Positions 332 to 25,751 of a stretch of 64,000 bases of DNA are shown here, piece by piece (position 1 is the first letter of the stretch; every line of letters begins with the position of its first letter). The stretch lies in the NCBI GenBank assembly GCA_029866155.1, contig JARWZW010000068.1, forward strand, positions 1 to 64,000, given 5' to 3'. Below the pieces are notes generated by a model. The model was not told the origin of the DNA. It ran no database searches and was given only the letters and a program-made list of their open reading frames with translations. The DNA comes from Caulobacter sp. Its GTDB lineage: Bacteria; Pseudomonadota; Alphaproteobacteria; Caulobacterales; Caulobacteraceae. The position numbers and the translations under genes were made by a program.

Positions 332-985
332 ATGAGCCGCTCTCCCCTGCCCGGCCTTGTCATCGGTGGCGGCCGCGATGTCACCCTGGAATTGTTGATC
401 AAGCGGTTGATGGACGTGATCGCCTCCATTGTCTTGATCATCCTTCTTGGGCCGCTCCTTGTCGCGATCGCCATTCTCGTGGCTGTGACCTCCCCCGGGC
501 CCGTTCTGTATGCCTGCGACTGGGTCGGCCAGGGCGGCAGGCCCTTTCGGGGCTACAAGTTCCGCACCATGATACCGGACGCAGACGCCCGGGAGGCGGA
601 GCTGCAGTCCCGAAACGAAATGAGCGGTCCCGCCTTCAAGATGGCGAACGATCCCAGGGTAACGGGTCTCGGCCGGATGCTGCGCAAGTACAGTCTTGAT
701 GAACTGCCGCAGCTTTGGAGCGTCCTTAAAGGCGATCTGAGCCTTGTCGGGCCCAGGCCGCCCCGCGCCCATGAGTTTGCCCGGTTCACCGAGTTCCAGC
801 GCCAGAAATTGTCAGCGCAGCAGGGCATCACCTGTCTCTGGCAGGTCGAGGGACGTCACCGCATCAGCGACTATGACGAATGGGTCGCCCTGGACATAGA
901 GTATATCCGCAACTGGTCGCTCTGGCTGGACATCAAGATCCTCTTCCGGACAGTCGGGGTCGTTATCAGGGGGACCGGCGTATGA
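332..985 (+). CDS. Priming sugar-phosphate transferase (bacterial sugar transferase family)
   Basis: This 217-residue monotopic phosphoglycosyl transferase would load the first sugar-1-phosphate onto undecaprenyl phosphate to begin exopolysaccharide repeat synthesis. A hydrophobic re-entrant segment spans about residues 25-52. It is followed by KFRTM (76-80), the catalytic Asp-Glu dyad in SLDELPQL (123-124) and GPRPP (140-144), all typical of the PglC/WcaJ catalytic core. At about 200 residues it is the short form, without the WbaP/WcaJ N-terminal membrane domain. Its TGA overlaps the ATG of the next glycosyltransferase, which points to translational coupling. Caulobacter uses such enzymes (HfsE, PssY, PssZ) to start holdfast polysaccharide; which one this corresponds to cannot be told from sequence alone. 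Confidence 0.9.
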
Positions 986-1938
986 CATCGAGGATCGACA
1001 TCAGCGTTGTGGTCCTGAGTTACAACCGCGTTCACCTGCTGGGACGGACGCTCAGGGGTTGCCTGGCCCAGGCCGCCGACGCCCCGTGTTTCGAGATCAT
1101 CGTGGTCGACAATCATCCCGATCGACTGTCGGAGGGCCTGGTGGAAGGCCTGGCCACCGCCAACCCCGCCGTCCCGCTGGTGTATCTCAGCGACAGTCGG
1201 CGAAACATCTCCATTGTCCGCAACAAGGCCATTGCGGCGGCGAGCGGGACCTATGTGGTCTTCATCGATGATGACGAGGCGCCCCAGCCCCTTTGGCTGG
1301 CCGAGATGTTCGCCTGTCTCGAACGTACCGGGGCCGACGCCGCCTTCGGTCCCAAATTGCCGGAATTCGAGGGCGGAGCCGCACCGGACTGGGACCCACA
1401 GGGCTGGCGCTACACCCTGGACTTCCAGCTTCCGGCCGACACGCCGCTGCATCTGTTCGGGCGGTTCCGACGAAAGGGCAAGGGTCTGGGAAGCGGCAAC
1501 GCCGCCTTCCGGGTATCGACCTGCCTTGCCGATCCGGAACCCTTCGCGGTGGCGTTTGGCGACGCCAATGGCGAGGACACGCAGCTCCTGTTTCGTCTGG
1601 CCCTGGCCGGCCGCAGGTTCGTCTGGTGCCCGACAGCTGTTGTTCACGAGTTTATCGAAACCGAGCGCGCCCGGCCCGATTACATGATCACCCGGATGAA
1701 ACGGGGATCGCAGCACTATGCCGTCTGCCGCATTGACACCAGTCGCAACAAGCTGCTGACCACCCTGCGAGTGGCGTTGCTGGGACTGGCTCAGTTTTCG
1801 GTCCATGCAGCGCTTTATGTTCTGTCTGGCGAGGCTATCCAGCCTGGCCGCTATGACCACCGTATCGGCATGGCGAAAGGACTTGGCAAACTGACCTGGC
1901 GCTCGCCGATCGGCTTCATCAATGAGGGGGCTGCGTGA
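982..1938 (+). CDS. Family 2 glycosyltransferase, copy 1
   Basis: This is a 318-residue GT-A fold glycosyltransferase. The N-terminus has the nucleotide-binding strand ISVVVLSYNR, then IIVVDNHP near residue 40, and the metal-binding FIDDDE (94-99). An acidic GEDTQLLFR segment further on is the usual catalytic-base region. The ATG at 982 overlaps the stop of the sugar transferase, so this start is preferred over the longer open frame beginning at 880. Its stop overlaps the GTG of the next gene. The two neighbours are clearly paralogous along their full length, including a shared C-terminal GMAKGLGKLTWR/MMAHGLGKLTFR motif, so they probably arose by tandem duplication. Donor and acceptor are not predictable. 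Confidence 0.85.
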   Translation: MTSRIDISVVVLSYNRVHLLGRTLRGCLAQAADAPCFEIIVVDNHPDRLSEGLVEGLATANPAVPLVYLSDSRRNISIVRNKAIAAASGTYVVFIDDDEAPQPLWLAEMFACLERTGADAAFGPKLPEFEGGAAPDWDPQGWRYTLDFQLPADTPLHLFGRFRRKGKGLGSGNAAFRVSTCLADPEPFAVAFGDANGEDTQLLFRLALAGRRFVWCPTAVVHEFIETERARPDYMITRMKRGSQHYAVCRIDTSRNKLLTTLRVALLGLAQFSVHAALYVLSGEAIQPGRYDHRIGMAKGLGKLTWRSPIGFINEGAA

Positions 1939-2936
1939 ACCGCAAGGCGCCGGACCCGGCTGCCGAGGCCATGGACCTCAGCATCGTCATCGCCACCTAC
2001 GACCGTCCGGCGCATCTGGCCCTGACTCTGCAGTCCTGCCTGTCCCAGACCAACGATCTGGGCCTGGACCTGGAAATCATCGTCATCGACAACCACCCCA
2101 GCGGCAGCGGTCGCCAGGTCTGCGATCGCTTGACCGAAGAGGGCGATCACCCGGTTCGTTATGTAGTGGATCTCACCCGCAATATGGCGGTCCTGCGCAA
2201 TCGCGGATTTTCTGAGGCGAGGGGACTGTGGCTAGCCTTCATCGATGATGACGAGATCGCCGATCCGGACTGGACCGACGCCCTGGTTCGCACGCTTCAG
2301 GCGACGGACGCCGATATCGTGGTCGGGCCCCGGCTAGCCCGGTTTGAAGGCGGCAGTCCGCCAGCCTATGACCCCGGAGGCAAAAGCTTCGTGCGTGATC
2401 TTGGCCTGGTCGACCAGGCCGAGATCATCCTGACCGAACCCTCCGGCAAGCCACGCTTTGGGCTCGGTACAGGCAACTCCCTGTTCAATCTGGCCCGCTG
2501 TTACGTTCCGGGACAGGGCCCCATGCTGACAGCCTTTGGCGACGCCGGAGGCGAGGACGCTGAACTTTTCGTCAGGCTGCACCGAATGGGGCGCCGCATC
2601 ATCTGGTCGGCCGGGGCTCGTGTTACCGAAACTGTGCCGGCTCATCGCACCAGCCCGGCCTACCGTTTCCTGCGCACACGCCGGGAAACCCAGCACTATG
2701 TCAGCATCTATCTCGACGGCGCGCGAAACCAGCGTCTGGCCTGGATTGTCCTTATGGCAAAAGGACTTGCCCAGGCTGCTGTCGGCGCTCTCATCGCTGC
2801 AGTCTCCTTTGAGTTCGGTTCGGACAGGCGCATCTCCGGACGGCTGATGATGGCCCATGGCCTTGGCAAGCTGACCTTTCGACATCCGGTCGGCTATATC
2901 GCTGAACCACCCGGCAAAACCCTGCTTCCCGACTAG
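1935..2936 (+). CDS. Family 2 glycosyltransferase, copy 2
   Basis: This 333-residue paralogue of the preceding gene carries the same landmarks: LSIVIATYDRP, IIVIDNHP, FIDDDE (103-107) and GEDAELFVRL, and an equivalent C-terminal hydrophobic stretch. It starts at a GTG inside the previous gene's stop codon. It would add a second sugar to the lipid-linked repeat unit. Divergence between the two copies is spread over the whole length, so specificities may differ. A gap of about 90 bases separates it from the transaldolase gene. Confidence 0.85.
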   Translation: MNRKAPDPAAEAMDLSIVIATYDRPAHLALTLQSCLSQTNDLGLDLEIIVIDNHPSGSGRQVCDRLTEEGDHPVRYVVDLTRNMAVLRNRGFSEARGLWLAFIDDDEIADPDWTDALVRTLQATDADIVVGPRLARFEGGSPPAYDPGGKSFVRDLGLVDQAEIILTEPSGKPRFGLGTGNSLFNLARCYVPGQGPMLTAFGDAGGEDAELFVRLHRMGRRIIWSAGARVTETVPAHRTSPAYRFLRTRRETQHYVSIYLDGARNQRLAWIVLMAKGLAQAAVGALIAAVSFEFGSDRRISGRLMMAHGLGKLTFRHPVGYIAEPPGKTLLPD

Positions 2937-3029
2937 CCCAGGGTGTGCGGATTATTCTTTCGGGACTGGCGCGAATATTGATCCGACGAGGCTCAGCTGT
3001 GCCCATTTGGGCCATTCGTTGGAGACACC

Positions 3030-3779
3030 ATGTTGCGCGATCTTGTCGCCCCATACGCCGCCTCGCCAGCTCCGATGCTCCAGGGCATCAAACTGTTCGG
3101 CGACGGCGCCAGCCTCGCGGACTTTTCCCGGCTGCGCAGCGAAGGCCGCGTGGTCGGGTTCACGACCAACCCGACCCTGATGTTCAAGGCAGGGGTCCAG
3201 GACTATGCCGCCTTCGCCCGGCAGCTGATCCACCTGATCCCGGACATGCCCCTGTCGTTCGAAGTGTTCTCAGATGACCTTGAGGAGATGGATCGGCAGG
3301 CTCGCCTGATCTCCGGCTGGGGTCGCAATGCCTATGTGAAGATACCAATCACCAACACCCGGGGCGAGAGCTGCCTGCCGCTGGTCGGACGGCTGAGCGC
3401 CGACGGGGTCAAGGTCAATGTCACGGCCATCATGACCCTGGAACAGACAGCAGCCACGGTCGAGGCCCTGAACACGGCTGTCCCGGCAATCATCTCGATC
3501 TTCGCAGGCCGCATCGCCGACACCGGGATCGATCCGGTGCCGGTCATGCGGGCGGCAGTGGCCATGGCGGCTCGCAAGCCCCGGGCAGAGGTCCTCTGGG
3601 CCAGCACCCGAGAGGTGTTCAACCTCTACCAGGCCCGCGATTGCGGTTGTCACATCATCACCGCCACCCCGGATATCCTTCGCAAGCTGGATATGTCCGG
3701 CAAGGACCTGGATGCGCTGTCGCTGGAAACCGTCGCCATGTTCCGCGACGACGCGGTCACTGCCGGCTACCGGATCTAG
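3030..3779 (+). CDS. Transaldolase-family protein
   Basis: This 249-residue (beta/alpha)8 aldolase belongs to the transaldolase/fructose-6-phosphate aldolase family. TTNPTL (45-50) follows the first strands, and the Schiff-base lysine is in YVKIPITN (K104). The ATG at 3030 has a GGAG ribosome site 5 bases upstream. The length fits the short FSA-like branch rather than the roughly 320-residue TalB form. It stands at the head of the heptose cassette, so a role in supplying or trimming sedoheptulose-7-phosphate for the GmhA-like isomerase is a reasonable inference, but the substrate is unproven. Twelve bases separate it from the nucleotidyltransferase. Confidence 0.85.
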   Translation: MLRDLVAPYAASPAPMLQGIKLFGDGASLADFSRLRSEGRVVGFTTNPTLMFKAGVQDYAAFARQLIHLIPDMPLSFEVFSDDLEEMDRQARLISGWGRNAYVKIPITNTRGESCLPLVGRLSADGVKVNVTAIMTLEQTAATVEALNTAVPAIISIFAGRIADTGIDPVPVMRAAVAMAARKPRAEVLWASTREVFNLYQARDCGCHIITATPDILRKLDMSGKDLDALSLETVAMFRDDAVTAGYRI

Positions 3780-3791
3780 GAACAGACCGGC

Positions 3792-4523
3792 ATGACCCAG
3801 GCCCTGGTTCTGGCCGCAGGCCTTGGAAGTCGCATCCGTTCGGTGGCGGGCGACCTGCCCAAGCCGCTGATGCCTTTTGCCGGCGAGCCGATCCTGGCGG
3901 GCAATCTCCGCTGGCTGGCTGATAGCGGGGTGACAGATGTCTGGATCAATCTGCATTACGGCGCAGAGGCGATCCGCCAGACCATCGGCGATGGCTCCGC
4001 TCTGGGTCTGTCGGTTCGCTATGTCTTCGAACCGACCTTGCTGGGCACGGCCGGGGCGCTGGGCAACATCCGGCAGCAGGTCCGGGGGCCAATCTTCGTG
4101 GTCTATGGCGACAGCGTTGTACGCTGCAATCTGGCCGCCCTTGCCGCCCGGCATCACGCCCGGGCCGCCGAGGTCACCATCGCCCTGTTCGACCGGGAGC
4201 GTCATGCCCATACCGGAATTGCCGGCGGCAGGGTGAAGCTTGGCCAGGACGGCGCGGTGAACGGATTTGTCGAGGGCGCCGGGGACGACAACGCTCACCC
4301 CCTGGTCAATGCCGGCCTCTATTGCCTGAACCCTTCGGTTCTCGATCTGATACCGCCGGGCTTCAGCGATTTTGGCCGGGACATCTTTCCGGCCATGCTC
4401 AGCGCCGGCCGCCGCCTTGATGGCCTCATCATGGAGGCTGGCGGCTTCTGTCTCGGGCTGGACACCCCGGAAAGCCATGCGGTCGGCGCCGCTCTGCTGG
4501 AACAGGGAAGACTGGTCCTTTGA
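3792..4523 (+). CDS. Sugar-1-phosphate nucleotidyltransferase, copy 1
   Basis: This 243-residue Rossmann-like nucleotidyltransferase begins with LAAGLGSRIRS, the pyrophosphorylase signature. It continues with LPKPLMPFAGEP and the metal-binding VYGDSV, then a C-terminal sugar-binding half ending near GLDTPES. In heptose loci this family (HddC) makes GDP-D-glycero-alpha-D-manno-heptose; MurU/RmlA-like enzymes are the alternatives. A second family member lies at 7778, on the other side of the two kinases, so the locus may make two activated sugars. The gene overlaps the start of the phosphatase by four bases. Confidence 0.8.
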   Translation: MTQALVLAAGLGSRIRSVAGDLPKPLMPFAGEPILAGNLRWLADSGVTDVWINLHYGAEAIRQTIGDGSALGLSVRYVFEPTLLGTAGALGNIRQQVRGPIFVVYGDSVVRCNLAALAARHHARAAEVTIALFDRERHAHTGIAGGRVKLGQDGAVNGFVEGAGDDNAHPLVNAGLYCLNPSVLDLIPPGFSDFGRDIFPAMLSAGRRLDGLIMEAGGFCLGLDTPESHAVGAALLEQGRLVL

Positions 4524-5065
4524 GCCTGCGCCCTGCCATCTTCTTCGACCGCGACGGCGTGCTGAATGACGTGGTCTGGCGCGACGGCAAGCCGGCTTCG
4601 CCCCGCTCGCCGGACGAGCTGCTGCTGGCGGACGACTGCCGTGAGGTCGTGAGCCGCCTGAAGTCGGCAGGCTTTCTGACTTTTGTCGTCACAAACCAGC
4701 CGGATGTTCGCCGGGGCCTGATGACGGCCACAGACCTCGAGGCGATCCATCGGCGCCTGGCTGAACACATCACCTTTGAAGAAATTGCCTGCTGTCCTCA
4801 TGACGACCGGGACTGCTGCGGCTGCAGAAAGCCCAGGCCCGGAATGCTGCTGGACCTCGCCCGCCGCTGGTCCGTCGATCTGGCCGCCAGCTGGATGATC
4901 GGCGACCAGGACCGCGACACCGCCTGCGGCCAGGCCGCCGGCTGCCACACCGCCCTGCTCAGCCGCTCGTATAACAGCGGAGCCGGCGCCGACATCAATG
5001 CCGCCGAACTGACCCTGATCTGCGACCAGATCCTTGAATCCCTCCCCCTTCGCCAGACCGCCTGA
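4520..5065 (+). CDS. gmhB: GmhB-like heptose bisphosphate phosphatase (HAD family)
   Basis: This 181-residue HAD phosphatase has the nucleophile motif DRDGVLN (D10, D12), the VVTNQPDV segment of motif II, and a zinc-binding Cys/His loop CCPHDDRDCCGCRKP followed by GMLLDLA. That loop is the hallmark of GmhB-type D-glycero-D-manno-heptose 1,7-bisphosphate phosphatases. It starts at a TTG overlapping the previous stop codon (TTGA), which implies coupling. The expected reaction removes the C7 phosphate to leave heptose 1-phosphate for the nucleotidyltransferase. Histidinol-phosphatase-like members share the fold, but the neighbourhood favours heptose. Confidence 0.85.
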   Translation: MSLRPAIFFDRDGVLNDVVWRDGKPASPRSPDELLLADDCREVVSRLKSAGFLTFVVTNQPDVRRGLMTATDLEAIHRRLAEHITFEEIACCPHDDRDCCGCRKPRPGMLLDLARRWSVDLAASWMIGDQDRDTACGQAAGCHTALLSRSYNSGAGADINAAELTLICDQILESLPLRQTA

Positions 5066-5078
5066 CCCTGGAGCCGCC

Positions 5079-5696
5079 ATGTTCATCGACCATTTCTTCG
5101 ACGCCGTCGCCCGCGCCACCGCCGCCATTGACCGCGAGTCGGTGGAGGCCACAGCCCAGGCCCTGGCCGCTGTCCGCGAACGGGGGGGCCGGCTGTTCAT
5201 CATCGGTGTCGGCGGAAGCGCGGGTCATGCCAGCCATGCCACCAATGACTTCCGCAAGATCTGCGGGTTCGAGGCCTATTGCCCGACCGACAACGTCTCC
5301 GAACTGACGGCCCGTATTAATGACGAGGGCTGGGAAGGCACCCTGTCCACCTGGCTGCAAACCAGCCGGCTGAAGCCGGAGGACGGCCTGCTGATCTTCT
5401 CTGTCGGCGGCGGCAGCATCGACCCTCCAGTCAGCGCCAATATCGTCCGGGCAATCCAGCTGGCCAAACAGCGCGGCGCCATGGTTACCGGCATTGTCGG
5501 GCGGAACGGCGGCTACACCGCCCAGGCTGCGGACGCCTGTGTCGTTATCCCGACCGTCGACCCGCAACTGATCACGCCGATTGTCGAGGGCCTGGCGGCT
5601 GTCGTCTGGCATCTGCTGGTGTCCCACCCGGCGCTCGCCCAGTCCAAGGGGCATTGGGAGCAGATCACACCGGCCTCCGATCCCGTTGCGGCCTGA
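5079..5696 (+). CDS. gmhA: GmhA-like SIS-domain phosphoheptose isomerase
   Basis: This SIS-domain protein of 205 residues has the phosphosugar-binding GVGGSAGHASH near residue 45 and SVGGGSIDPP near residue 110. The family converts sedoheptulose 7-phosphate to D-glycero-D-manno-heptose 7-phosphate. The ATG at 5079 (FIDHFFDAV follows) is chosen over the earlier one at 5034, which lies inside the phosphatase gene. The stop is four bases before the kinase start. Relative to enterobacterial GmhA it looks like the divergent isomerases of GDP-heptose clusters. Confidence 0.8.
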   Translation: MFIDHFFDAVARATAAIDRESVEATAQALAAVRERGGRLFIIGVGGSAGHASHATNDFRKICGFEAYCPTDNVSELTARINDEGWEGTLSTWLQTSRLKPEDGLLIFSVGGGSIDPPVSANIVRAIQLAKQRGAMVTGIVGRNGGYTAQAADACVVIPTVDPQLITPIVEGLAAVVWHLLVSHPALAQSKGHWEQITPASDPVAA

Positions 5697-5700
5697 ACCG

Positions 5701-6705
5701 ATGATCTCGACCCGCACACCGCTGCGCGTAACCCTCGGCGGCGGCGGCACCGATCTAGAGAGCTATTATCGCCTTGGTGGCGGATTCATCTTCGCCATGG
5801 CGCTGGACAAGTACATCCACATCACCGCCCATCGCCCCCTGTTCGACAGCCGGGTGGTTCTCTACGGGCCTCAGCCGGAGGCCTCGGAGCGAGCGATGGA
5901 TGTCCGCCATGAACTGGTGCGGGCCGCATTGCTGTCCCATGGCCTGGAGAACCGCATCGAGGCCGCCTCTCTCGCCGACATCGCCGGCGGGACAGGTCTC
6001 GGCTCTTCCAGCAGCTTTCTGGTGGGCTTTCTCAACGCGCTTCACGCCCTTAAGGGAGAAAGTCCTACGGCCCATGACCTGGCCGAGGAAGCCTGCACCC
6101 TTGAGATCAAGACCCTTCAGAAAGGCATAGGCAAGCAAGACCAGTACATGGCGGCCTTCGGCGGCCTGACCACCCTGGACATCGCTCCGGACGGCAGGGT
6201 CGAAGTGGGACGAGTCGATATCCCGGCGGACCTCGAGGCTGCCTTCCTGTCCCACACCCACATCTACTATACAGGCCTCAGACGGGACGCTGCAGTGATC
6301 CTGTCTGACCAGAACAGCGCCATGCGGTCGGACGCCTCTCCACAGCGCGGCCAGGTCGATGAGAGCCTGACCTTCATCAAGGACCTCGGCTACCGTATCC
6401 GGGACGCCTGGATAGCCGGAGACATCGAGGGCTGGGGCCGGATGCTGGACGAACATTGGCGACAGAAGAAGCGGCTCTCCAGCAAGATCAGCTGGCCCCA
6501 CATCGACCAGCTTTACGATCATGTCAAAGGCGCCTTCGGCGTCACAGGCGGCAAGGTGATCGGCGCCGGCGGCGGCGGTTTCCTGATGCTGTTCTGCCCT
6601 GGAAACGGTCAGGCCCTGGAAGATTACATGACGGCCCAGCAGATGCCCCGGCTGCACTACGGCATCGACCGCCACGGGTCCCGAGTGCTGGGCGCCGCCG
6701 CATGA
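5701..6705 (+). CDS. HddA-like GHMP-family sugar kinase, copy 1
   Basis: This 334-residue GHMP kinase has the N-terminal substrate strand RVTLGGGGTDLESYY. The ATP-binding loop GGTGLGSSSSF (motif 2) lies near residue 100, and the C-terminal GAGGGGFLMLF (motif 3) near residue 285. These match D-glycero-alpha-D-manno-heptose 7-phosphate kinase (HddA), which adds the anomeric phosphate. An ATG at 5701 directly after the isomerase stop is used; the longer open frame upstream overlaps the isomerase. The stop overlaps the start of a second, paralogous kinase. Fucose/L-arabinose-type GHMP kinases are an alternative. Confidence 0.8.
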   Translation: MISTRTPLRVTLGGGGTDLESYYRLGGGFIFAMALDKYIHITAHRPLFDSRVVLYGPQPEASERAMDVRHELVRAALLSHGLENRIEAASLADIAGGTGLGSSSSFLVGFLNALHALKGESPTAHDLAEEACTLEIKTLQKGIGKQDQYMAAFGGLTTLDIAPDGRVEVGRVDIPADLEAAFLSHTHIYYTGLRRDAAVILSDQNSAMRSDASPQRGQVDESLTFIKDLGYRIRDAWIAGDIEGWGRMLDEHWRQKKRLSSKISWPHIDQLYDHVKGAFGVTGGKVIGAGGGGFLMLFCPGNGQALEDYMTAQQMPRLHYGIDRHGSRVLGAAA

Positions 6706-7778
6706 TCCAGACGGCGCCTCAGAGACCGCCCTTGGCGATGGCCCTGAACGGAGTCCGGGCCAGGGCGCCTCTCCGCCTTGGACTGGCAGGCGGCGGAACC
6801 GACCTTTCTCCCTATTGCGATCAATTTGGCGGTGCTGTGCTCAACGCCACCATCGACCGTTTCGCATTCGCCCATCTGAGCGCCGAGCCTGAAGGCCGGA
6901 TCGCCTTCCGGGCCAGCGATATCCGGGCCGAGGAGGTCTATGCGCCCGGCCAGATCATGAGCGTGAATGGCCCCTTGATGCTGCACAAGGCCGTTTATCA
7001 GTACATGACCCGCACCTATCTGGGCGGACAGCAGCCCTCGCTGACGGTGTCCACGACTACAGATGCTCCTCCCGGCTCGGGGCTTGGCTCCTCCTCGGCC
7101 CTGGTGGTCGCCCTGGTTGAGGCCTTCCGCATGGCGCTGGACCTGCAGTTGGGGCCATACGAAATCGCGCAGCTGGCCTATCGGATCGAGCGAGAGGACC
7201 TTGGTCTGGCCGGCGGCCGGCAGGATCAGTATGCGGCCGCTTTCGGAGGCATCAACTTCATCGAATTCCTGGCGGATGAGCGGGTGATCGTGAATCCGCT
7301 GCGGGTGCGTCGCGGCTACCTCAACGAACTGGAATCCTCGCTGGTCATCTGCTTCACTGGTCAGTCCCGGCAGTCAGCCGGGATCATCGCGCGTCAGGTG
7401 GAAGGGCTGCGCCAGATGGACGGCCTGGTGATCGAAAACATGCATCGCCTGAAGGCCGACGCCGGGGCCATGAAGCAAGCCATGCTGGGGGGTGATATCC
7501 GCGAGGTTGGCCGGGTGCTGATACGATCCTGGGAAGCCAAGAAGGGCACAGCGAGCGGTATCGCCACGCCCCTGGTGGACGAACTGTTCGATCTTGCAAT
7601 GGCTCAGGGCGCCTGGGGCGGCAAGGTGTCCGGGGCCGGCGGTGGCGGATTTCTGATGTTCTGCACCGACCCCGAAAATCGCTATCGTCTGACCTCCGCC
7701 CTCAATGAAGCGGGGGGGCAGGCCAGCGCCGTGAAGTTCACCTTCGACGGAGCCGAGGCCTGGAGCGTGAAGGCCTGA
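6702..7778 (+). CDS. HddA-like GHMP-family sugar kinase, copy 2
   Basis: This is a 358-residue paralogue of the preceding kinase with the same three motifs: RLGLAGGGTDLSPY, PGSGLGSSSALVV and GAGGGGFLMFC. It carries an extra N-terminal segment of about 25 residues. The ATG at 6702 overlaps the TGA of copy 1 and the stop overlaps the start of the second nucleotidyltransferase. Kinase 2 and nucleotidyltransferase 2 are therefore physically coupled and likely work on one sugar-1-phosphate. Two HddA-like kinases side by side suggest either two related heptoses or one neofunctionalised copy. Confidence 0.8.
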   Translation: MIQTAPQRPPLAMALNGVRARAPLRLGLAGGGTDLSPYCDQFGGAVLNATIDRFAFAHLSAEPEGRIAFRASDIRAEEVYAPGQIMSVNGPLMLHKAVYQYMTRTYLGGQQPSLTVSTTTDAPPGSGLGSSSALVVALVEAFRMALDLQLGPYEIAQLAYRIEREDLGLAGGRQDQYAAAFGGINFIEFLADERVIVNPLRVRRGYLNELESSLVICFTGQSRQSAGIIARQVEGLRQMDGLVIENMHRLKADAGAMKQAMLGGDIREVGRVLIRSWEAKKGTASGIATPLVDELFDLAMAQGAWGGKVSGAGGGGFLMFCTDPENRYRLTSALNEAGGQASAVKFTFDGAEAWSVKA

Positions 7779-8479
7779 TGGGCGCCGCGGCGCGCCAGGG
7801 CGTGATCCTGATGGGCGGGTTGGGAACCCGTCTCGGGAACCTCTCGAGCCACACACCCAAGCCCATGCTGCCCGTGCAGGGCCGGCCGTTCGTCGAGTGG
7901 CTGATCGAGAAGGCCCGGCGCACTGGCATTGAGCGAATGCTGCTGCTCTGCGGCCATCGCGCTGAGGTGGTCGAGGCCTGGCGTCCCGGTGCGGAAGCCC
8001 GGTTTGATATCTCCATCGAGATCAGCAGGGAGCCGCAGCCTCTGGGCACGGCCGGAGCCCTGATCCACGCCCGGGCGCAACTGGCTGATGACTTTCTGCT
8101 GTTGAACGGAGACACCTGGTTTGACTTCGACTGGTCGGCGCTCGCCCTTCAGAAGGATGATCTGGGCGCCCTGGCCCTGCGCCCGGTTTCGCCAGCTGAC
8201 CGCTATGAAACCATCACCCTGGCGTCGGGACGAGCCATCGCCATCAATCCAAGAAACCTTGATCTTGGCGCCGGCCTGATCAATGCCGGCGTCTATCGGC
8301 TCCGCCCCGCCGCCCTGGACGGATTCTCGGCCCCGGCCTCTCTGGAGGGGGATGTTCTGCCGGTTCTGGCGAGCCGGGGAGCCCTGGCCGGACAAAGGTT
8401 CGAGGGCGGATTCATCGATATCGGCCTGCCTGAAACCTATGACGCCGCCCAGACGATGGACCTGGGCGCTCCGCAATGA
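7778..8479 (+). CDS. Sugar-1-phosphate nucleotidyltransferase, copy 2 (HddC-like)
   Basis: This 233-residue nucleotidyltransferase has the signature ILMGGLGTRLGN with the usual Ala replaced by Met. It is followed by TPKPMLPVQGRPF and LLNGDTWFD, and ends with a GGFIDIGLPETYD segment characteristic of HddC/RfbF-like enzymes. The usual product would be GDP-D-glycero-D-manno-heptose. It overlaps kinase 2 upstream and the GH10 gene downstream by four bases, so the run from 3792 to 9570 is close to one translationally coupled operon. Confidence 0.8.
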   Translation: MGAAARQGVILMGGLGTRLGNLSSHTPKPMLPVQGRPFVEWLIEKARRTGIERMLLLCGHRAEVVEAWRPGAEARFDISIEISREPQPLGTAGALIHARAQLADDFLLLNGDTWFDFDWSALALQKDDLGALALRPVSPADRYETITLASGRAIAINPRNLDLGAGLINAGVYRLRPAALDGFSAPASLEGDVLPVLASRGALAGQRFEGGFIDIGLPETYDAAQTMDLGAPQ

Positions 8480-9570
8480 CCGCGGGGGCGACACGGCGCA
8501 GCCTTTTGGCCGGCGTCGCCGGGCTCGCCGGCCTCCCGGCCCAGGTCATGGCCCGGGATTCGACGGCAGCGGGTCTGGCCGCCCTCGCCGCCCGCCGGGG
8601 CGTGGACTACGGGGCCGCCGTCGAACCTGAAAACCTGGCCCGGGACTCGAGCTTTGCAGACCTGATCAATCGGGAATGCGTCAGCGTGACTCCCGAAAAT
8701 CACCTCAAATGGAACATCCTCCGTCCGACGCCGGACCATTTCGACTTCGGCGGCGCAGATGCCGTTGTCGCTTTCGCCAAGGCCCGGCAATTGGCAGTGC
8801 ATGGCCATTGCCTGGTCTGGCACGAGGCCAATCCGGCCTGGCTGGCCGCAGGCCTGACCCGGCAAAACGCCGAGGCCTTGCTGAACCATCACATCGGCAA
8901 GGTGGTGGGACGATATGCCGGCCATGTTGGAAGCTGGGATGTCGTCAACGAGCCCGTCGAACGCAATGATCGCCGGCCCGACGGCCTGCGCCGGTCCCTC
9001 TGGTTGAGCAGCCTGGGACCCGACTATATCCCCCTGGCCTTCGAAGCCGCTCACCGGGCGGATCCGGCAGCCCGGCTGGTCCTTTCGGACTATGGTCTGG
9101 AGTATGACGACGAGCCTTGGATGGTCGAAAAGCGCGGCTCCCTGCTGGCGTTGCTGGCCGACTGGAAGCGCGCCGGGGTTCCCATCCACGCCCTGGGGAT
9201 TCAGGGACATCTGATCGGGTCTCGCCCACCGGCCTTCGGGACGGGATTGCAGAACTTTCTGCGGGATGTCGGCCGGCTCGGTCTCGATATCCATGTCACC
9301 GAACTGGACGTCAATGACCAGCAGGTGGCCGGCGGTCAGGACCACCGGGACAGGATCGTGGCTGACTGTTACCGGGCCTTCCTGAGGGCCGTACTGACCT
9401 CCTCCAGGCTTCGCGTTGTGACCACCTGGGGCCTTTCCGATCGCTACAGCTCCAAGCAGGACATGTTTCCCCGCCCAGACGGCGCCCCGGTGCGCCCGCT
9501 TCCCTTCGACCGGGAGCTTTCCCGAAAGGCGGCCTGGCATGCGATGGCCGACGCCTTCTCGGTCCGCTGA
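8476..9570 (+). CDS. Tat-exported GH10 glycoside hydrolase (endo-1,4-beta-xylanase family)
   Basis: A twin-arginine leader (TRRSLLAGVAGLAG, cut near AQVMA) is followed by a GH10 catalytic barrel in a 364-residue protein. The visible family landmarks are TPENHLKWN, GHCLVWHEANPAW, the acid/base glutamate in WDVVNEP near residue 158, and the nucleophile in HVTELDVND near residue 276. Family 10 enzymes cleave xylan and related beta-glycans. The ATG overlaps the preceding nucleotidyltransferase stop, so the enzyme is part of the polysaccharide operon. A role in trimming or releasing the exported polymer is more likely here than plant xylan use, but this is inference from context. Confidence 0.85.
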   Translation: MTAGATRRSLLAGVAGLAGLPAQVMARDSTAAGLAALAARRGVDYGAAVEPENLARDSSFADLINRECVSVTPENHLKWNILRPTPDHFDFGGADAVVAFAKARQLAVHGHCLVWHEANPAWLAAGLTRQNAEALLNHHIGKVVGRYAGHVGSWDVVNEPVERNDRRPDGLRRSLWLSSLGPDYIPLAFEAAHRADPAARLVLSDYGLEYDDEPWMVEKRGSLLALLADWKRAGVPIHALGIQGHLIGSRPPAFGTGLQNFLRDVGRLGLDIHVTELDVNDQQVAGGQDHRDRIVADCYRAFLRAVLTSSRLRVVTTWGLSDRYSSKQDMFPRPDGAPVRPLPFDRELSRKAAWHAMADAFSVR

Positions 9571-9576
9571 CGCCCC

Positions 9577-10083
9577 TCAGGGCCTCGTCTTTACCTGGTG
9601 CAGCCCCACTCGGCCTGACTCTGCAGCAAGACCAGCGACCGCAATACTGAAACCGGGATCACAGGGCGGAAGATGGGCATTCCAATGGGCTCCGGGCGGC
9701 TCGCAGCCGGTTATTCTGGGCGGATCCAGACCAAGGATGAGAGGCATCTGCCTTGAAAATCCCACCCCCAGGGCCTTGAGCCCGGCCTCGTTGAGCGTCC
9801 AGAGATCAAAGAAGTGACGGGTCCGCTCCGGCTCCTCGGACGAGGCGATGAGGGCCGCAGCGACCGGGTCAAACTGCATCTGAGCGATGGCCTGGCTATC
9901 GACCGAGCCGTCTATAGCCTCGATATCGACCCCGACGATGCAGCGACGGCCAATGACGCAGGCGCTTGCGCCTTTGGTCCGGGACAGACTGATGGAGAGC
10001 TCCAACTCGGGCCGCCAGGCAGTCCTGAGCGCCCCGAGCGGCGTCCTGTCCAGGCGACCATCCCACCCCAGAGGGTCCAGCAT
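9577..10083 (-). CDS. 4'-phosphopantetheinyl transferase (Sfp-type)
   Basis: The C-terminal domain carries the magnesium-binding VGVDIEAID, then LWTLNEAGLKALG. The latter corresponds to the W-(S/T)-x-K-E-A-x-x-K signature, with Asn in place of the first Lys. The product would transfer phosphopantetheine to a carrier-domain serine, most obviously that of the divergent NRPS-like protein. The only canonical start is the ATG at 10083, giving 168 residues. The frame stays open and protein-like upstream to about 10242 (for example IIVLAWSRED), but that stretch has no ATG, GTG or TTG. The N-terminus is therefore unresolved: a rare start codon or a frameshift is possible. It converges on the GH10 gene. 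Confidence 0.75.
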   Translation of the reverse strand: MLDPLGWDGRLDRTPLGALRTAWRPELELSISLSRTKGASACVIGRRCIVGVDIEAIDGSVDSQAIAQMQFDPVAAALIASSEEPERTRHFFDLWTLNEAGLKALGVGFSRQMPLILGLDPPRITGCEPPGAHWNAHLPPCDPGFSIAVAGLAAESGRVGLHQVKTRP

Positions 10084-10207
10084 ATCGGCCAGAAGCCGGC
10101 GGGACGCCGCTCGGTCGTCTTCCCGCGACCAGGCAAGGACGATGATTGGCGCGTCGGTTGCAGCCCATGGCTCGGACAGCCGATTCAGGACAGTCGAGGA
10201 ATTGATC

Positions 10208-13200
10208 GTGGCCGCTCCGCAACGGGGAAAGACGCTGGAGACTCAACAGTCTATCGACACAGCCGGCGTCGACCAGCCCATCCATGTCCCGCCGAAGGAC
10301 CTGGCCGAGCGGTCACAGATGGCGGACTTTCGCCGTCGCATGGAATCCCTGTCAGGCCAGGCCTTCGCCGATCACGCGGACTTTCACCGGTTCAGCGTTG
10401 AAAATGCTGCATTTTTTTGGTCCAATCTGCTGGACTGGCTGGAGCTGCCACAGTCTGGCTCGCCGGTTCCCGCCCTGGAAGGCGAGACCTGCGAAACCGC
10501 GCGCCATTTTCCCGATCTTCGGCTGAACTATGCCGAGTGCCTGCTTCAGGGGGCCGATGGGGATCTGGCCCTGCTGGGCTTGTCCGAAGGGGTGATGGCC
10601 CAAAGACTGTCCCGAGCCGAGCTGCGCAACAGGGTCGAACGTCTGGCGGCGGGCCTGCAGTCCCTGGGACTTCGACCGGGGGACCCTGTGGCGGCCGTGC
10701 TTCGGAACGACGTCGAGGCGGTGATCGCGGTGCTGGCCGTGGCGGCCTGCGGCGGCGTGGTGGCGACCGCAGCGCCGGACATGGGGGCTGACCTGCTTGC
10801 AGCGCGCCTGTCGCCCTTTGCGCCGAAATTCCTGCTAACGGCGCTGGCGCCCCGTCCCCGGGATAGCGGTTTGCCCCTGTCGAAGCGGGCCACCGCGCTG
10901 GCGGCCGGACTGCCCTCCCTGAGGGTCGTGCTGGTCCTGGACGGCCATGAACGCCTGACTGACGACGTCTTCCCTCCCGGCCTGGAAGTTCACAGGACAG
11001 GGGCGCTGCCGACCAGCTCCGGTGGCTTTCGCTACGAGCATTTTCCCTTCAATCATCCCTTGTTTGTGCTGTTTTCTTCCGGAACGACCGGACCGGCCAA
11101 GGGGTTTGTCCACGGCGCTGGCGGAACCCTTCTGGAGCATCTGAAGGAACACAGGCTGCATTGCGATCTGGGGCCGGGAGACCGCCTGTGCTTCCAGACC
11201 TCGCCGGCCTGGATGATGTGGCATTGGCAGCTTTCGGCCCTGGGCGCCGGGGCCGCCATCCTGGTCCATGACGGTGCGGTCAGCGGCCCGGAAACGCTCT
11301 GGGGGATCGCCGCTGAACATGGCGTCACAGTCCTGGGGACCAGCCCTCCCTACCTGCAACTCTGCCAGTCCCTCGACTACCGCCCCCCCGCCGGTCAGGA
11401 CCTGTCATCCCTGCGAGCGGTGCTGTCGACCGGGTCTATTCTGCATCCGGATCAGGCGCGCTGGGTCTGCCAGGCCATCAAGCCCCTCCCGGTCCAGTCG
11501 ATCAGCGGCGGGTCGGACATCATCGGCTGCTTTGTTCTGGGCCACCCCGGCCTGCCGACCTTTGCGGGCGAAGCCCAGTGCCTGAGCCTTGGCCTCGACG
11601 TAGGGATCTCGGAGGGCGAACTCACCTGTAGCAATCCGTTTCCATCCAGACCGCTGCACCTCCTGGCGGATCCAGATGGCCAGAAGTTTCACCAGGCCTA
11701 TTTCTCTGGCCCGGACGGGGCCTGGCGACATGGCGACCGGATCGAGATTACACCGCGCGGGGGCGTGATCCTGAAGGGGCGGATGGACGGCGTCCTGAAT
11801 ATCCGCGGCATCCGTATCGGGCCGGCGGAGGTCTATCGCATTCTTCGGGAAATCCCGGAACTGGGCCAGTGCCTTGTCGTGGAGCAGTCCGCCAGTCCGG
11901 CCCGGGACGCCCGCATGGTGCTGCTGGCGACCCTGAAACCAGGCGTCGTCATGGGACAGGACCTCAAGCAGGTCATACGAAGGACATTGTCCGAAAAGGC
12001 CTCTGCGGCCCACGTTCCGGAAATCATCCTGGCCGTTGACGATCTGCCGATGACCCATAGCGGCAAGCTGTCCGAGGCCGCCGCCCGGGACGTTGTAAAC
12101 GGTGCAGCAATAGCCAATTTGCGGGCGCTCAAGAACCCGGACTCCTTGAAGTCCATTGCTCGCGCCATGGCCGACATGGCTAGCCCGCCGGCAGGGGGTC
12201 CAGACGCTCTCGAGTCCTGGCTGGCGGGGCTCTGGTCCGAGCTGCTACAGACCGAGGATCCCGGTCCGGATGACAATTTCTTCGACCTGGGCGGACACTC
12301 CCTGATGGCGGCGCGGATCCTTGCAGAGATCCGCCAGCGAACAGGCCGCGCCCTGCCGATGGCCACCCTGTTGCATGCACCGACCCTGCGCAGCCTGACG
12401 GCGGCCATGCAGTCGAAGGACTGGCAGGCCGGATCGCGATTGACGTCCCTCGTTGAGGACGGCGAAGGGGCGCCGTTCTTCCTGGTGCACAGCATGACCG
12501 GCAATGTGCTTCAGCTGCACAGCCTGGTGAAGGCGCTGGGCAAGGGGCGGCCGGTGATCGGCATACAGGCCAGGGGCCTGGATCTCGACGAGACGCCACT
12601 GGATCGGGTCGAGGCCATGGCGGACGACTACCTTCAGGCAATCTGCGCCCGGCAGCCCCGTGGCCCCTACAGCCTGGGCGGCTTCTCATTCGGCGGACTG
12701 GTGGCCTTTGAAATGGCGCGCCGACTGAGGGCTCGCGGCGAGCAGGTGGCGCTTCTGGTGCTGCTGGACACCCAGCCGGACAAGGCCTTCCTGCCCCTGG
12801 CCGAGCGGACCAGGTTGCTGGGTATCAGGCTGGCTCACCACGCCGGCCGTCTGGTCCGGATGGGGCTGGCCGGGCAACTGACCTATCTGCGCGACAGGAT
12901 GCTGGCCTTGGCTGGCCGCCGGCCCCCTCCGCCGGCCCCCGCCTATTCCATGCCCCCCCACATCCAGGCGATCCGTGATGGAATTCTTGCGGCAACGGCC
13001 TTTTACCGACCGGGGGCCTATGACGGGCCGATTCTGTTCATCCGCGCCGCTGTGCCAGCTCCGGTCAGTTTCGACCCTGTGACACTCTGGAGAACCGTCA
13101 CCGAAGGCCGGGTCGAGACAATCACCGCTCCAGGCGACCATGACAGCATGATCGAACCACCCCATGTCGAAGTCCTGGCCGCGCTGCTCCGGGAGCGACT

Positions 13201-13237
13201 CGGATCGCTGGGTCAGCCCGGTCCCGGACCTCGGTGA
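10208..13237 (+). CDS. NRPS-like protein: acetoacetyl-CoA-synthetase-like adenylation, carrier and thioesterase domains
   Basis: This is a 1009-residue three-domain protein. The N-terminal region (HADFHRFSVEN, then AAFFWSNLLDW) is the cap typical of acetoacetyl-CoA synthetases. The adenylation core has the P-loop SSGTTGPAKG near residue 290 and the C-terminal lysine in THSGKLSEAA. A carrier domain follows with the phosphopantetheine serine in DLGGHSLMAA (about S698). A type I thioesterase completes it, with the nucleophile in GGFSFGG (about S827), LLDTQPD and a late GDHDSM histidine. The start is a GTG at 10208, preceded by GAGGA seven bases upstream. There is no condensation or ketosynthase domain. 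The inferred job is to activate a small beta-keto or hydroxy acid and release or hand it on, perhaps as a glycan acyl substituent. The substrate is unknown. Confidence 0.85.
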   Translation: MAAPQRGKTLETQQSIDTAGVDQPIHVPPKDLAERSQMADFRRRMESLSGQAFADHADFHRFSVENAAFFWSNLLDWLELPQSGSPVPALEGETCETARHFPDLRLNYAECLLQGADGDLALLGLSEGVMAQRLSRAELRNRVERLAAGLQSLGLRPGDPVAAVLRNDVEAVIAVLAVAACGGVVATAAPDMGADLLAARLSPFAPKFLLTALAPRPRDSGLPLSKRATALAAGLPSLRVVLVLDGHERLTDDVFPPGLEVHRTGALPTSSGGFRYEHFPFNHPLFVLFSSGTTGPAKGFVHGAGGTLLEHLKEHRLHCDLGPGDRLCFQTSPAWMMWHWQLSALGAGAAILVHDGAVSGPETLWGIAAEHGVTVLGTSPPYLQLCQSLDYRPPAGQDLSSLRAVLSTGSILHPDQARWVCQAIKPLPVQSISGGSDIIGCFVLGHPGLPTFAGEAQCLSLGLDVGISEGELTCSNPFPSRPLHLLADPDGQKFHQAYFSGPDGAWRHGDRIEITPRGGVILKGRMDGVLNIRGIRIGPAEVYRILREIPELGQCLVVEQSASPARDARMVLLATLKPGVVMGQDLKQVIRRTLSEKASAAHVPEIILAVDDLPMTHSGKLSEAAARDVVNGAAIANLRALKNPDSLKSIARAMADMASPPAGGPDALESWLAGLWSELLQTEDPGPDDNFFDLGGHSLMAARILAEIRQRTGRALPMATLLHAPTLRSLTAAMQSKDWQAGSRLTSLVEDGEGAPFFLVHSMTGNVLQLHSLVKALGKGRPVIGIQARGLDLDETPLDRVEAMADDYLQAICARQPRGPYSLGGFSFGGLVAFEMARRLRARGEQVALLVLLDTQPDKAFLPLAERTRLLGIRLAHHAGRLVRMGLAGQLTYLRDRMLALAGRRPPPPAPAYSMPPHIQAIRDGILAATAFYRPGAYDGPILFIRAAVPAPVSFDPVTLWRTVTEGRVETITAPGDHDSMIEPPHVEVLAALLRERLGSLGQPGPGPR

Positions 13238-13320: not shown

Positions 13321-14256
13321 ATGTCTTGTTCTGCGCTTCTTGAACCCGCAACCCTGGTGGAGGCCAGCCGTCCCTTTCGATTGACCCGTCGCCCCGAGGA
13401 GCGGGTCGTCCTGCTTGGCCAGTTGATGGACATGGTTCGCCCGGAAGAGGTCTTGCACTTCATTTCGGGCAGTATCGCCGCCCGTCGAAAAGCCCTGATA
13501 GCCAACCACAACGCCCACAGCCTCTATCTGCTGCGCCGAAACCCGGAATTTGCGGCCTACTACCAGATGGCGGATCTGGTGGAGGTCGATTCCCTGCCGC
13601 TGCTGCTCTGGGCCAATGGCACCGGCCGCCGGAGCCGCCGCTTTCATCGCTGCACCTATCTGGACTGGCGGGACCCCTTCTGGAATCTCGCCTCCGAACG
13701 GGAGTGGCGCGTCTTCTACCTTGGCGGCGCGCCTGGCGTGGCCGAGGCCGCCAAGGCAGCCCTGATCGAGACCTGGCCCGGCCTGACCCTTGAGGTCTGT
13801 GACGGCTATTTCGATATGTCCGCTGGCAAGACAGCCAACAGTGCTGTCCTGTCCCAGATCAAGGCCTTCGCCCCAGATGTTCTGTTCGTGGGCATGGGAA
13901 TGCCCCGACAGGAGCTGTGGATTCAGCAGAACTACGATCATTTGCCAGCCTGTGCGATCCTGCCCGTCGGGGCGGCCTTCGACTATGAGGCCGGGGTCCA
14001 GAAGGCTGCGCCCCGCTGGATGGGACGGATCGGGGTGGAATGGCTGTTCCGGCTTCTTCATGATCCAAGGCGGCTATTCAGTCGCTACTGCGTAGAGCCC
14101 TGGTTCCTGATCGCCATGCTGATCCAGGACGCGTTCGTCGCTCATGCAGAGCGACGGAAGACTCAGAAAATGGAGCGCCGCCGCCAACCTGCGACGGTCA
14201 GCCCGTCGCCCGGACGCAGGGCTGCAGATCAGCGGCGGACTCTGCCCACCGTCTGA
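13321..14256 (+). CDS. WecG/TagA/CpsF-family glycosyltransferase
   Basis: This 311-residue protein has the family's core: LIANHNAHSLYLLR (the usual TPN is NHN here), the aspartate in DLVEVDSLPLL, FYLGGAPGV, and FVGMGMPRQELWI, ending with GAAFDYEAG and PRWMGRIGVEWLFRLL. Members transfer N-acetylmannosaminuronic acid, N-acetylmannosamine or similar residues to a lipid-linked acceptor. The C-terminal basic helix probably docks on the inner membrane. It follows the NRPS-like gene on the same strand by 83 bases. A second family member starts at the window's left edge. Confidence 0.88.
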   Translation: MSCSALLEPATLVEASRPFRLTRRPEERVVLLGQLMDMVRPEEVLHFISGSIAARRKALIANHNAHSLYLLRRNPEFAAYYQMADLVEVDSLPLLLWANGTGRRSRRFHRCTYLDWRDPFWNLASEREWRVFYLGGAPGVAEAAKAALIETWPGLTLEVCDGYFDMSAGKTANSAVLSQIKAFAPDVLFVGMGMPRQELWIQQNYDHLPACAILPVGAAFDYEAGVQKAAPRWMGRIGVEWLFRLLHDPRRLFSRYCVEPWFLIAMLIQDAFVAHAERRKTQKMERRRQPATVSPSPGRRAADQRRTLPTV

Positions 14257-22651: not shown

Positions 22652-23797
22652 TCAGGCGGCCTTGCCGAAGCTCAGGGTTTCGTAGCGACGCAGGTGATGA
22701 TCGACGGAGCCGAACAGGCCCTCGATCATGGTGGCGCGCTTGAAGTAATGGCCGACCGCCAGTTCGTTGGTCATGCCCATGCCGCCATGGATCTGGATGG
22801 CGTTCTGGCCGACAAACTTGCAGGCCTTGCCGATCTGAACCTTGGCCGCAGACACGGCCTTTGCGCGCTCGACATCGGATTCGTCCAGCTTCAGGGTCGC
22901 CATATAGGTCATGGACACCGACTGTTCGACGTTCATGAACATGTCGACCATGCGGTGTTGCAGCACCTGGAAATTGGCGATCGCCGTGCCGAACTGTTTG
23001 CGCTGACGGGCATAGTCCAGGGTAGTCTCATGCATTCTACGCATGGCGCCGACGGCTTCGGCGCAGGTGGCCGAAATGGCCTCGTCCAGCACCTTTTCGA
23101 CCAGGGGAAGGCCCGCGCCTTCGCCACCGATCAGCGCGTCTGCCGGAACCGAGACGTTCTCGAAATAGACTTCCGAGGCGCGCTGGCCGTCAACCGTCGG
23201 ATAATCACGGGTCACGATGCCCTTGGAGGCCTTGTCGACCAGGAACACGGAAACCCCGCCAGCGTCACGCTGGGCGCCGCCGGTGCGGGCAGTGACGATG
23301 AGATGGGTGGCCCATGGAGCCCCGACCACGACCGCCTTGTGGCCATTCAGAACGTAGCCCGCGCCGTCCTTCTTGGCGGTGGTCTTGATATCAGACCAGG
23401 TGTAGCGGGCTTGGGGTTCGGCATAGGCAAAAGCGATCACGGCCTTGCCTTCAATGATCTGGCCGATGACATCGGCTGCGCCGGCATAGCCGGAATGTTT
23501 CAGGAAGCCGCCGCCGATCACCACTGTGCCGAGATAGGGCTCGACCACCAGGGCCTTGCCGAACTCCTCCATGACAATCATGTTTTCGATGGCGCCGCCG
23601 CCCAGACCACCATGGTCTTCGGCGAACGGGGCCCCCAGGATTCCCAGTTCATTGGCGAACGCACCCCAGTTGGCGGCGCTCCAGCCGGACTCGGAGTTTA
23701 TCAGCTTCTGACGGCTGTCGAAATTGTAGCGATCCTGCAGAAAGCTCGCGACCGTGTCGCGGAGCATCGACTGCTCTTCGCTGAAATTGAAATCCAT
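22652..23797 (-). CDS. Acyl-CoA dehydrogenase (pimeloyl-CoA dehydrogenase small-subunit-like)
   Basis: This 381-residue flavoprotein fits the acyl-CoA dehydrogenase fold: an N-terminal helical domain (MDFNFSEEQSMLRDTV), GILGAPFAEDHGGLGGG, a middle beta domain, and a C-terminal helical domain with ARQRKQFG and QIHGGMGMTNEL. The usual catalytic Glu region is not canonical, as in PimD-type small subunits. The ATG at 23797 has GGAG at a good distance; a longer frame to 23938 is rejected. It is the second gene of a pair with the dehydrogenase at 23974, about 180 bases apart, and the two probably act as a heteromeric dehydrogenase on dicarboxylyl- or long-chain acyl-CoA. Confidence 0.85.
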   Translation of the reverse strand: MDFNFSEEQSMLRDTVASFLQDRYNFDSRQKLINSESGWSAANWGAFANELGILGAPFAEDHGGLGGGAIENMIVMEEFGKALVVEPYLGTVVIGGGFLKHSGYAGAADVIGQIIEGKAVIAFAYAEPQARYTWSDIKTTAKKDGAGYVLNGHKAVVVGAPWATHLIVTARTGGAQRDAGGVSVFLVDKASKGIVTRDYPTVDGQRASEVYFENVSVPADALIGGEGAGLPLVEKVLDEAISATCAEAVGAMRRMHETTLDYARQRKQFGTAIANFQVLQHRMVDMFMNVEQSVSMTYMATLKLDESDVERAKAVSAAKVQIGKACKFVGQNAIQIHGGMGMTNELAVGHYFKRATMIEGLFGSVDHHLRRYETLSFGKAA

Positions 23798-23973
23798 CCT
23801 GGAAGCTCCGTCCTTATGGTTTGGCCCTGCCTCTGATGGCGGGGTTGGTATTCTAAAATTCGCAGGGTCAGGCGATGCCCGACCTGACCCCGATTGGCAA
23901 TGCTCTGTCGCAAGGTTGACACCCCTGACCCGCCGCAAACCGCAGCAGGCCAGGAAGTTGTCCCAAGGCGATC

Positions 23974-25188: not shown

Positions 25189-25307
25189 CAGAGGCTCCCG
25201 GCGCGGCCCTCAACGGACCATTTTTGTTGAGCGTAATAATAGGGCTCGCTCGCCGATTTGCAAAGATGACGCTTGCGTCAACGTCAATTTGACCGATCCG
25301 GATGGCC

Positions 25308-25343: not shown

Positions 25344-25383
25344 CAAGGCTGTTGGGTGCTCGGGTGCAGACGCAGCGAAAATC

Positions 25384-25716: not shown

Positions 25717-25751
25717 GGGGCCTCTCCGGGGGAAGAAATTCGACAAGCCAT

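Follow-up and report, generated by a model that had tools for sequence, protein, structure and literature searches.

Why would a protein that joins an acetoacetyl-CoA synthetase (AACS)-like adenylation (A) domain to a carrier (T) domain and a thioesterase (TE) be encoded among heptose and exopolysaccharide (EPS) genes? This question is raised by a 64,000-nt stretch of Caulobacter sp. DNA (contig JARWZW010000068.1 of assembly GCA_029866155.1, positions 1 to 64,000; the window), in which a single A-T-TE gene lies at the end of a block of glycan genes. The answer that we tentatively favour, from the sequence of the protein and the genes around it, is carrier-based acyl transfer, with a surface glycan as a frequent acceptor. 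The gene and its domains are laid out as follows.

10208-13237, plus strand: A-T-TE synthetase of 1009 residues with a GTG start (frame translation and domain matches; relatives start at about the same place)
10280-12157, plus strand: AACS-type A domain, residues 25-650, including an AACS-like C-terminal tail (TIGR01217; match to structure 4wd1)
12218-12406, plus strand: T domain, with Ser698 in GGHSL (PF00550)
12473-13180, plus strand: TE domain, with Ser827, Asp854 and His978 (PF00975)

When the protein was scanned against Pfam with hmmscan, AMP-binding, PP-binding and Thioesterase matched above their cut-offs, AMP-binding_C fell just under its own, and neither a condensation (C) nor a ketosynthase (KS) domain was found in the 1009 residues. 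The order is that of a single module, A followed by T and then TE, with no C or KS domain. The carrier motif GGHSL, the TE motif GFSFGG, the Asp in LLDT and the His in GDHDSM are all intact, and Lys620 of the A domain is presumably the catalytic lysine. Ser827, Asp854 and His978 are common to 11 of 12 aligned proteins, the exception being the protein of genome G657, which has no TE. In a separate check of the carrier motif, rows B94 and B95 did not fit the pattern used. These results agree with a first-pass annotation made from the DNA letters alone, which had described a 1009-residue A-T-TE polypeptide with an AACS-like activation domain, an intact carrier serine and TE motif, and no C or KS domain; the full catalytic triad can be added to that description. 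A typical amino-acid module of a nonribosomal peptide synthetase (NRPS) was considered and rejected, TIGR01733 reaching 99 bits against a cut-off of 317.4.

The A domain passed the TIGR01217 model for acetoacetate--CoA ligase (530.9 bits, cut-off 520.9) and missed PRK03584 (586.8, cut-off 639), and its closest solved structure was the acetoacetate-CoA ligase 4wd1 (E 4e-110). In a maximum-likelihood tree of 52 A domains (L030 was left out), 31 A-T-TE or A-T-X rows stood on one side of a branch and 21 AACS-like rows on the other; this branch had a support of 100/100 and a length of 0.88. Judged by sequence, the A domains of the A-T-TE proteins are a distinct AACS-derived family, and 33 aligned positions were near-fixed yet different between the 31 A-T-X rows and 16 AACS rows. 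The equivalents of Acs V310, T311, V386 and W414, residues that we take to line the acyl pocket, are M336, M337, T408 and G434, the same as in the solved AACS 4wd1, and the AACS C-terminal tail is kept, as judged by eye. The type of the A domain, its 4wd1-like pocket residues and the retained tail together point to acetoacetate or a close four-carbon (C4) acid as our best guess at the substrate. Since the fusion passes the TIGR01217 equivalog cut-off, annotation by that model would call it acetoacetate--CoA ligase.

The fusion is scattered among genomes. Within the taxonomic family of the window, six of 390 genomes matched at E <= 1e-100, and in four of them (G000, G017, G264 and G276) the match spanned carrier and TE; the A-T-TE proteins of G017, G264 and G276 are 60-68% identical to that of the window. 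The first-pass annotation had proposed looking in relatives for the A-T-TE gene paired with a phosphopantetheinyl transferase (PPTase) gene, and the pair was indeed found in these four of 390 genomes, in the same block in all four. Apart from the window's own protein, the only one to extend well past the A domain was that of G657 among 385 genomes of the class and that of G1081 among 398 genomes of the phylum. A search for related loci gave one, L012, which corresponds to the G017 contig. A search of five genomes yielded G657 only, and the order at large gave one of 399 genomes (G1081, whose family we took to be Burkholderiaceae from plasmid matches). The G657 protein (L025 548-3736, minus strand) consists of an AACS-type A-T followed by a weak GNAT-like stretch instead of a TE. 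If this end is truly GNAT, the A-T unit would there feed acyl transfer in the manner of Ebony, whose atypical condensation domain has a GNAT fold.

Burkholderiaceae held the larger number of copies: 35 of 249 genomes matched at E <= 1e-150, eight of these twice, in five of 25 genera (the matches of G1212 and G1373 are partial, and the L063 copy is cut short in its frame). Of 72,556 plasmid records, 94 matched at E <= 1e-80 and seven did so over at least 80% of the query; the seven belong to Cupriavidus, Caballeronia and Paraburkholderia, and the label, given for two of them, is acetoacetate--CoA ligase. With the fusion present in 4 of 390 genomes of the window's family and 35 of 249 Burkholderiaceae genomes, we rejected the idea of a one-genome oddity or an assembly error. 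Among the papers listed in literature searches that paired AACS with thioesterases, NRPSs, carrier proteins or polysaccharides, we recognised no account of this architecture, and searches on Caulobacter heptose EPS clusters, AACS substrates and RalA were of no help either. A family that loads a carrier and has its own PPTase seems to have arisen from the AACS fold; it occurs in Burkholderiaceae and, within the family of the window, in one genus, and annotation labels it acetoacetate--CoA ligase.

The PPTase gene of the window lies immediately upstream of the A-T-TE gene, on the opposite strand.

9577-10206, minus strand: Sfp-type PPTase (PF01648); the ATG-bounded open reading frame (ORF) covers 9577-10083, and the likeness to relatives runs to about 10206

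This is the divergent PPTase that the first-pass annotation had reported. It scored 43.6 with PF01648 (cut-off 25) and carries GVDIE and WTLNEAGLK, which fit GVD(I/V)E and WxxxExxxK, presumably the Sfp-type PPTase motifs; with the model of the N-terminal domain at a loose threshold, only the G264 copy gave a weak match, of two relatives' copies scanned. The ATG-bounded ORF probably stops short of the true N-terminus. The conserved N-terminal stretch begins with ATC or ATA in all four genomes, at 10206-10204 in the window, and no ATG, GTG or TTG fits this stretch in the window. The A-T-TE frame for its part is open upstream to an ATG at 9887, and this earlier start was rejected: GTG 10208 is the best start predicted for the A-T-TE gene because nearly all of 9887-10207 is antisense to the PPTase and because the G264 and G276 relatives begin near the position equivalent to GTG 10208. 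The first conserved PPTase codon is one base away from 10208, so that the two starts stand head to head, and the simplest reading would be a rare PPTase initiator with head-to-head start codons.

G000, G017 and G264 each have two members of the ACPS family, namely AcpS (identified by eye, with pdxJ- and lepB-like neighbours) and the locus PPTase, and each have two carriers, an AcpP-like protein of about 80 residues and the A-T-TE protein. G276 differs, with three matches to the ACPS family and six to the carrier family. The locus PPTase is, as far as sequence can tell, dedicated to the A-T-TE protein, and the presence of one NRPS-type carrier and one Sfp-type PPTase in each of G000, G017 and G264 makes the pairing directly testable. 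Of the 28 Burkholderiaceae loci inspected, eight have a full-length PPTase match immediately after the synthetase gene, on the same strand, so that the orientation differs from that in the divergent Caulobacter-type block. A partial match (L058 21142-21315) follows the A-T-TE gene of a Cupriavidus necator plasmid and is perhaps a remnant.

We then considered the genes around the pair. Those of the window are listed here in order.

332-2936, plus strand: priming sugar-phosphate transferase (332-985) and two GT2 glycosyltransferases (880-1938 and 1935-2936) (profile matches)
3030-3779, plus strand: transaldolase-like enzyme (TIGR02134, 311.4 bits, over the cut-off of 281.95)
3792-4523, plus strand: sugar-1-phosphate nucleotidyltransferase (profile matches)
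4520-5065, plus strand: GmhB-like phosphatase (profile match)
5034-5696, plus strand: GmhA-like SIS isomerase (profile matches)
5581-6705, plus strand: HddA-like kinase 1 of the GHMP type, ORF from TTG (profile matches)
6456-7778, plus strand: HddA-like heptose 7-phosphate kinase 2 of the GHMP type, ORF from TTG, true start probably later (NF049969, 341.2, under the cut-off of 600)
7778-8479, plus strand: HddC-like heptose-1-phosphate nucleotidyltransferase (NF049965, 115.5 bits, under the cut-off of 300)
8476-9570, plus strand: GH10 glycosidase with an export-type N-terminus as judged by eye (PF00331, E 4.8e-79)
13321-14256, plus strand: WecG/TagA/CpsF glycosyltransferase, downstream and outside the conserved block (profile match)

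Glycan neighbours had been claimed for both sides of the A-T-TE gene, and both sides hold them, with GH10 and heptose enzymes upstream and the WecG-type glycosyltransferase downstream. The block from 332 to 13237 is syntenic in G017, G264 and G276, and the A-T-TE gene forms its 3' end in 4 of 4 cases; genes past 13321 are not syntenic in the relatives, the G017 contig ending there. Upstream of the block, the relatives carry genes of the Wzy_C, Poly_export, Wzz and WecG types, and the locus is therefore one for EPS or capsule. Relatives of kinase 2 that are at least 59% identical occur in 15 of 75 genomes of the genus, and four of the 15 also have the A-T-TE gene. We inspected eight loci from the 11 kinase-2 genomes that lack it (G272, G006 and G012 were left out). 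The GH10 gene, of a xylanase family, was present in all four loci with the A-T-TE gene and in none of the eight without it. The block also contains paralogous pairs of GT2 genes (880-2936), nucleotidyltransferases (3792-8479) and heptose-7-phosphate-type kinases (5581-7778), as if they served two activated heptoses, or two steps, in parallel. Elsewhere in the window, two genes of the acyl-CoA dehydrogenase family and one of the 4HBT thioesterase superfamily lie at 22652-26383, where we saw no link to the A-T-TE gene.

The block is not uniform in its divergence. Compared with G017, the window shows 79-93% DNA identity as far as 7750 and 57-76% from there on, the step at about 7750 coinciding with the start of the HddC-like gene; GC content is nearly equal across it. 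The nine heptose-side genes encode proteins 84-98% identical, with 60-75% identity at 4-fold sites, and the values for HddC, GH10 and A-T-TE are 66-75% and 37-40%, respectively. This drop at both levels suggests that, in the window/G017 pair, the common ancestor of the block's end is older than that of its body, as would follow from exchange of the end in one piece, and position 7750 or thereabouts is a probable recombination boundary inside the EPS locus. Mere fast evolution of the A-T-TE protein was rejected as the source of the window/G017 divergence because the 4-fold sites drop too. Between the window and G264, the difference between heptose side and end of block is small.

The surroundings in Burkholderiaceae were surveyed in the 28 loci, in most of them over about 8 kb per side, in G1081 and the plasmid records over about 18 kb. 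These loci correspond to 29 stretches, since one locus is split between L041 and L042; L064 and L122, equal in record length and flanks, are apparently one record. We grouped the 28 by shared flanks into 13 settings. A chosen few genes were scanned with Pfam in each of L059, L060, L062, L064, L107, L113, L114, L117, L121, L123 and L124; the others were judged by eye, and the Cupriavidus-type loci L109, L110 and L112 only via shared-neighbour clustering. Small neighbours may go unseen in these loci, since gene calling initially missed the PPTase of G1081. Polysaccharide-assembly genes were found in five of the 13 settings, amounting to seven of the 28 loci. L114 holds two genes of the heptosyltransferase family, three for glycosyltransferases, and one each for a pfkB-type kinase, a priming transferase, an epimerase, a flippase-type protein, a phosphomannomutase and a Kdo hydroxylase; by its predicted gene content it is a lipopolysaccharide (LPS)-type locus. 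L121 combines a WecA-type PF00953 gene with a GlmS-like and a GINT1_N gene. A WecA-type PF00953 gene also occurs in L123, together with genes for a polysaccharide deacetylase and a pectate-lyase-like protein (the latter below cut-off), and L124 has Wzc, SLBB, GT2 and GT87. In L059, L113 and L117, a pectate-lyase-like gene adjoins a MurJ-type flippase gene, which was identified by a scan in L059 and by its likeness, judged by eye, in the other two; L060 has the pectate-lyase-like gene only. This pectate-lyase/epimerase-like gene (PF12708) thus lies near five A-T-TE copies and may be the counterpart of the GH10 gene of the window. The Pfam scan placed it as follows.

L059 22565-23863: PF12708 pectate-lyase-like gene
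L060 21246-22295: PF12708 pectate-lyase-like gene
L113 12847-14304: PF12708 pectate-lyase-like gene
L117 5615-6913: PF12708 pectate-lyase-like gene
L123 3549-4673: PF12708 pectate-lyase-like gene (below cut-off)

Apart from the PPTase, no neighbour recurred across lineages in these loci, the pectate-lyase-like gene coming closest with its five. A search of the Burkholderiaceae loci with the window's own genes gave one glycan-gene match, in L114. In 20 Burkholderiaceae genomes, 2 of 25 A-T-TE copies lay at most 10 kb from a PF02397 priming transferase, compared with about 0.25 expected from 68 PF02397 genes in about 135 Mb; this background control covers PF02397 only. Upstream of the Paraburkholderia phymatum copy, at L062 10608-15289, we observed an AMP-ligase gene and a gene for an AMP-binding/carrier/acyltransferase protein.

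How could these observations be accounted for? In the acyl transfer that we tentatively propose, the neighbouring PPTase would prime Ser698, and the A domain would adenylate a small C4 acid with a beta-oxo (or beta-hydroxy) group, acetoacetate being the likeliest, and load it on the T arm at Ser698 rather than on CoA. The TE would take the acyl group on Ser827 and hand it to a hydroxyl or an amine. Priming, adenylation, loading and transfer to Ser827 are proposed because of the domain families; the hand-over is a guess, and so is the acceptor, which in the genus and several Burkholderiaceae would most likely be a sugar unit in a polysaccharide of the cell surface, or in its precursor. The A-T-TE protein and the PPTase would otherwise be self-sufficient, which would explain their scattered distribution. 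The first-pass annotation had left the choice between a glycan substituent and a separate acyl product, and the glycan side of it draws on the heptose/EPS block around 4 of 4 copies in the genus and on the five of 13 Burkholderiaceae settings. The proposal as a whole is also favoured by the separate clade of A domains, the dedicated PPTase, the proximity of 2 of 25 copies to PF02397 genes, the deeper split shared by HddC, GH10 and A-T-TE, and the A-T unit with a weak GNAT-like end in G657. A number of results weigh against our proposal. No polysaccharide-assembly gene was recognised in 21 of the 28 Burkholderiaceae loci within the 8-18 kb inspected per side. L060 is one of the 21, and so are all seven Cupriavidus-type loci, the very group with the adjoining PPTase, and the loci of the Cupriavidus necator (L058) and Caballeronia Lep1P3 (L061) copies. 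By plain count this comes near to homologues lying mainly outside glycan loci, the outcome that the first-pass annotation had named as telling against its idea. The PPTase query found no match beside the synthetase in 19 of the 28 loci, and the eight sister loci of kinase-2 genomes have the heptose genes and lack GH10, PPTase and A-T-TE. Differences from AACS such as Q341, P380 and G440 may signal another substrate, and besides this protein the window's own genome offers relatives of no more than 27-29% identity and no AACS-type enzyme, which leaves room for a plain AACS role. Finally, the end of the G657 protein matched GNAT models below cut-off throughout (Pfam E 0.003-0.03, NCBIfam AAC(6') E 0.001-0.1), and a structure search found no credible solved relative of it.

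A strong rival, possible in our estimate if somewhat doubtful, is a separate small diffusible product, in which the TE would join two or three acyl units, much as fungal quinone and furanone synthetases join aryl pyruvates and EntF its own units, or would lactonise one, and the polysaccharide neighbours would be incidental. The A-T-TE order is also that of non-reducing NRPS-like enzymes of fungi, in which the TE joins two identical alpha-keto acid molecules (PMC9047271). Moreover, the TE is closest to release domains of NRPS and polyketide synthases, EntF among them, and in Cupriavidus-type and other Burkholderiaceae loci the gene stands alone with at most the PPTase adjoining. However, the A domain is of the AACS and not of the aryl-pyruvate type, and a diffusible product would leave unexplained both the 4/4 block linkage in the genus and the 5/13 polysaccharide settings in Burkholderiaceae. 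Carrier-based transfer to a lipid, an amine or a protein instead of a glycan would suit the weak GNAT-like end of G657 and the AMP-ligase and acyltransferase genes of L062; as no such acceptor gene recurs beside the A-T-TE gene, we consider it improbable. Very improbable, in our view, is a plain AACS whose T-TE is decorative and which is the sole AACS of its genome. The TIGR01217 score above cut-off, the pocket residues and C-terminal tail that are kept, and the absence of a second AACS would all fit, but the T serine and the TE triad are kept at 43-67% identity, a dedicated PPTase would be pointless and the A domains fall in a separate clade. What probability remains beyond these four readings we leave to explanations that we have not thought of. 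Glycan acyl transfer could also take a more specific form, which we regard as rather unlikely as a whole. The HddC variant, GH10, PPTase and A-T-TE would then be one exchangeable acylation cassette at the end of the heptose EPS locus, in which the A-T-TE protein decorates the heptose polymer, or a precursor of it, with acetoacetyl or 3-hydroxybutyryl groups; the terminal domain (TE, or GNAT-like in G657) would choose the acceptor, and the same enzyme would serve the LPS/EPS loci of Burkholderiaceae.

Provided that acetoacetate is the acid and a sugar the acceptor, this system would be a way for bacteria to acylate their surface polysaccharides by means of a carrier protein. Among the known systems that it resembles, the bacterial RalA is counted with the kin of the fungal non-reducing NRPS-like enzymes. 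The latter (AcyN and kin) share the A-T-TE order and the lack of a condensation domain, but activate aromatic alpha-keto acids according to PMC9047271, whereas the A domain studied here is of the AACS type. Ebony, an A-T protein with a domain other than the usual condensation domain as outlined in PMC10531068, is comparable to the relative in G657 with its seeming A-T and GNAT-like end; the window protein differs from it in ending with a TE. Rhizobial EPS bears 3-hydroxybutanoyl groups and so offers a precedent for C4 acyl substituents on EPS, but no carrier-protein synthetase is named in the excerpted text (PMC5748678). The terminal T-TE of NRPS modules (EntF; 7crn) is alike in the sequence family of T and TE and in the triad, and unlike in that neither a condensation domain nor an amino-acid A domain stands upstream here. 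Closest over the whole length of the A domain is AACS itself (TIGR01217; 4wd1), with the same acyl-pocket residues and C-terminal tail, from which the protein of the window is set apart by its fused T and TE domains, its own clade and the 33 near-fixed residue differences.

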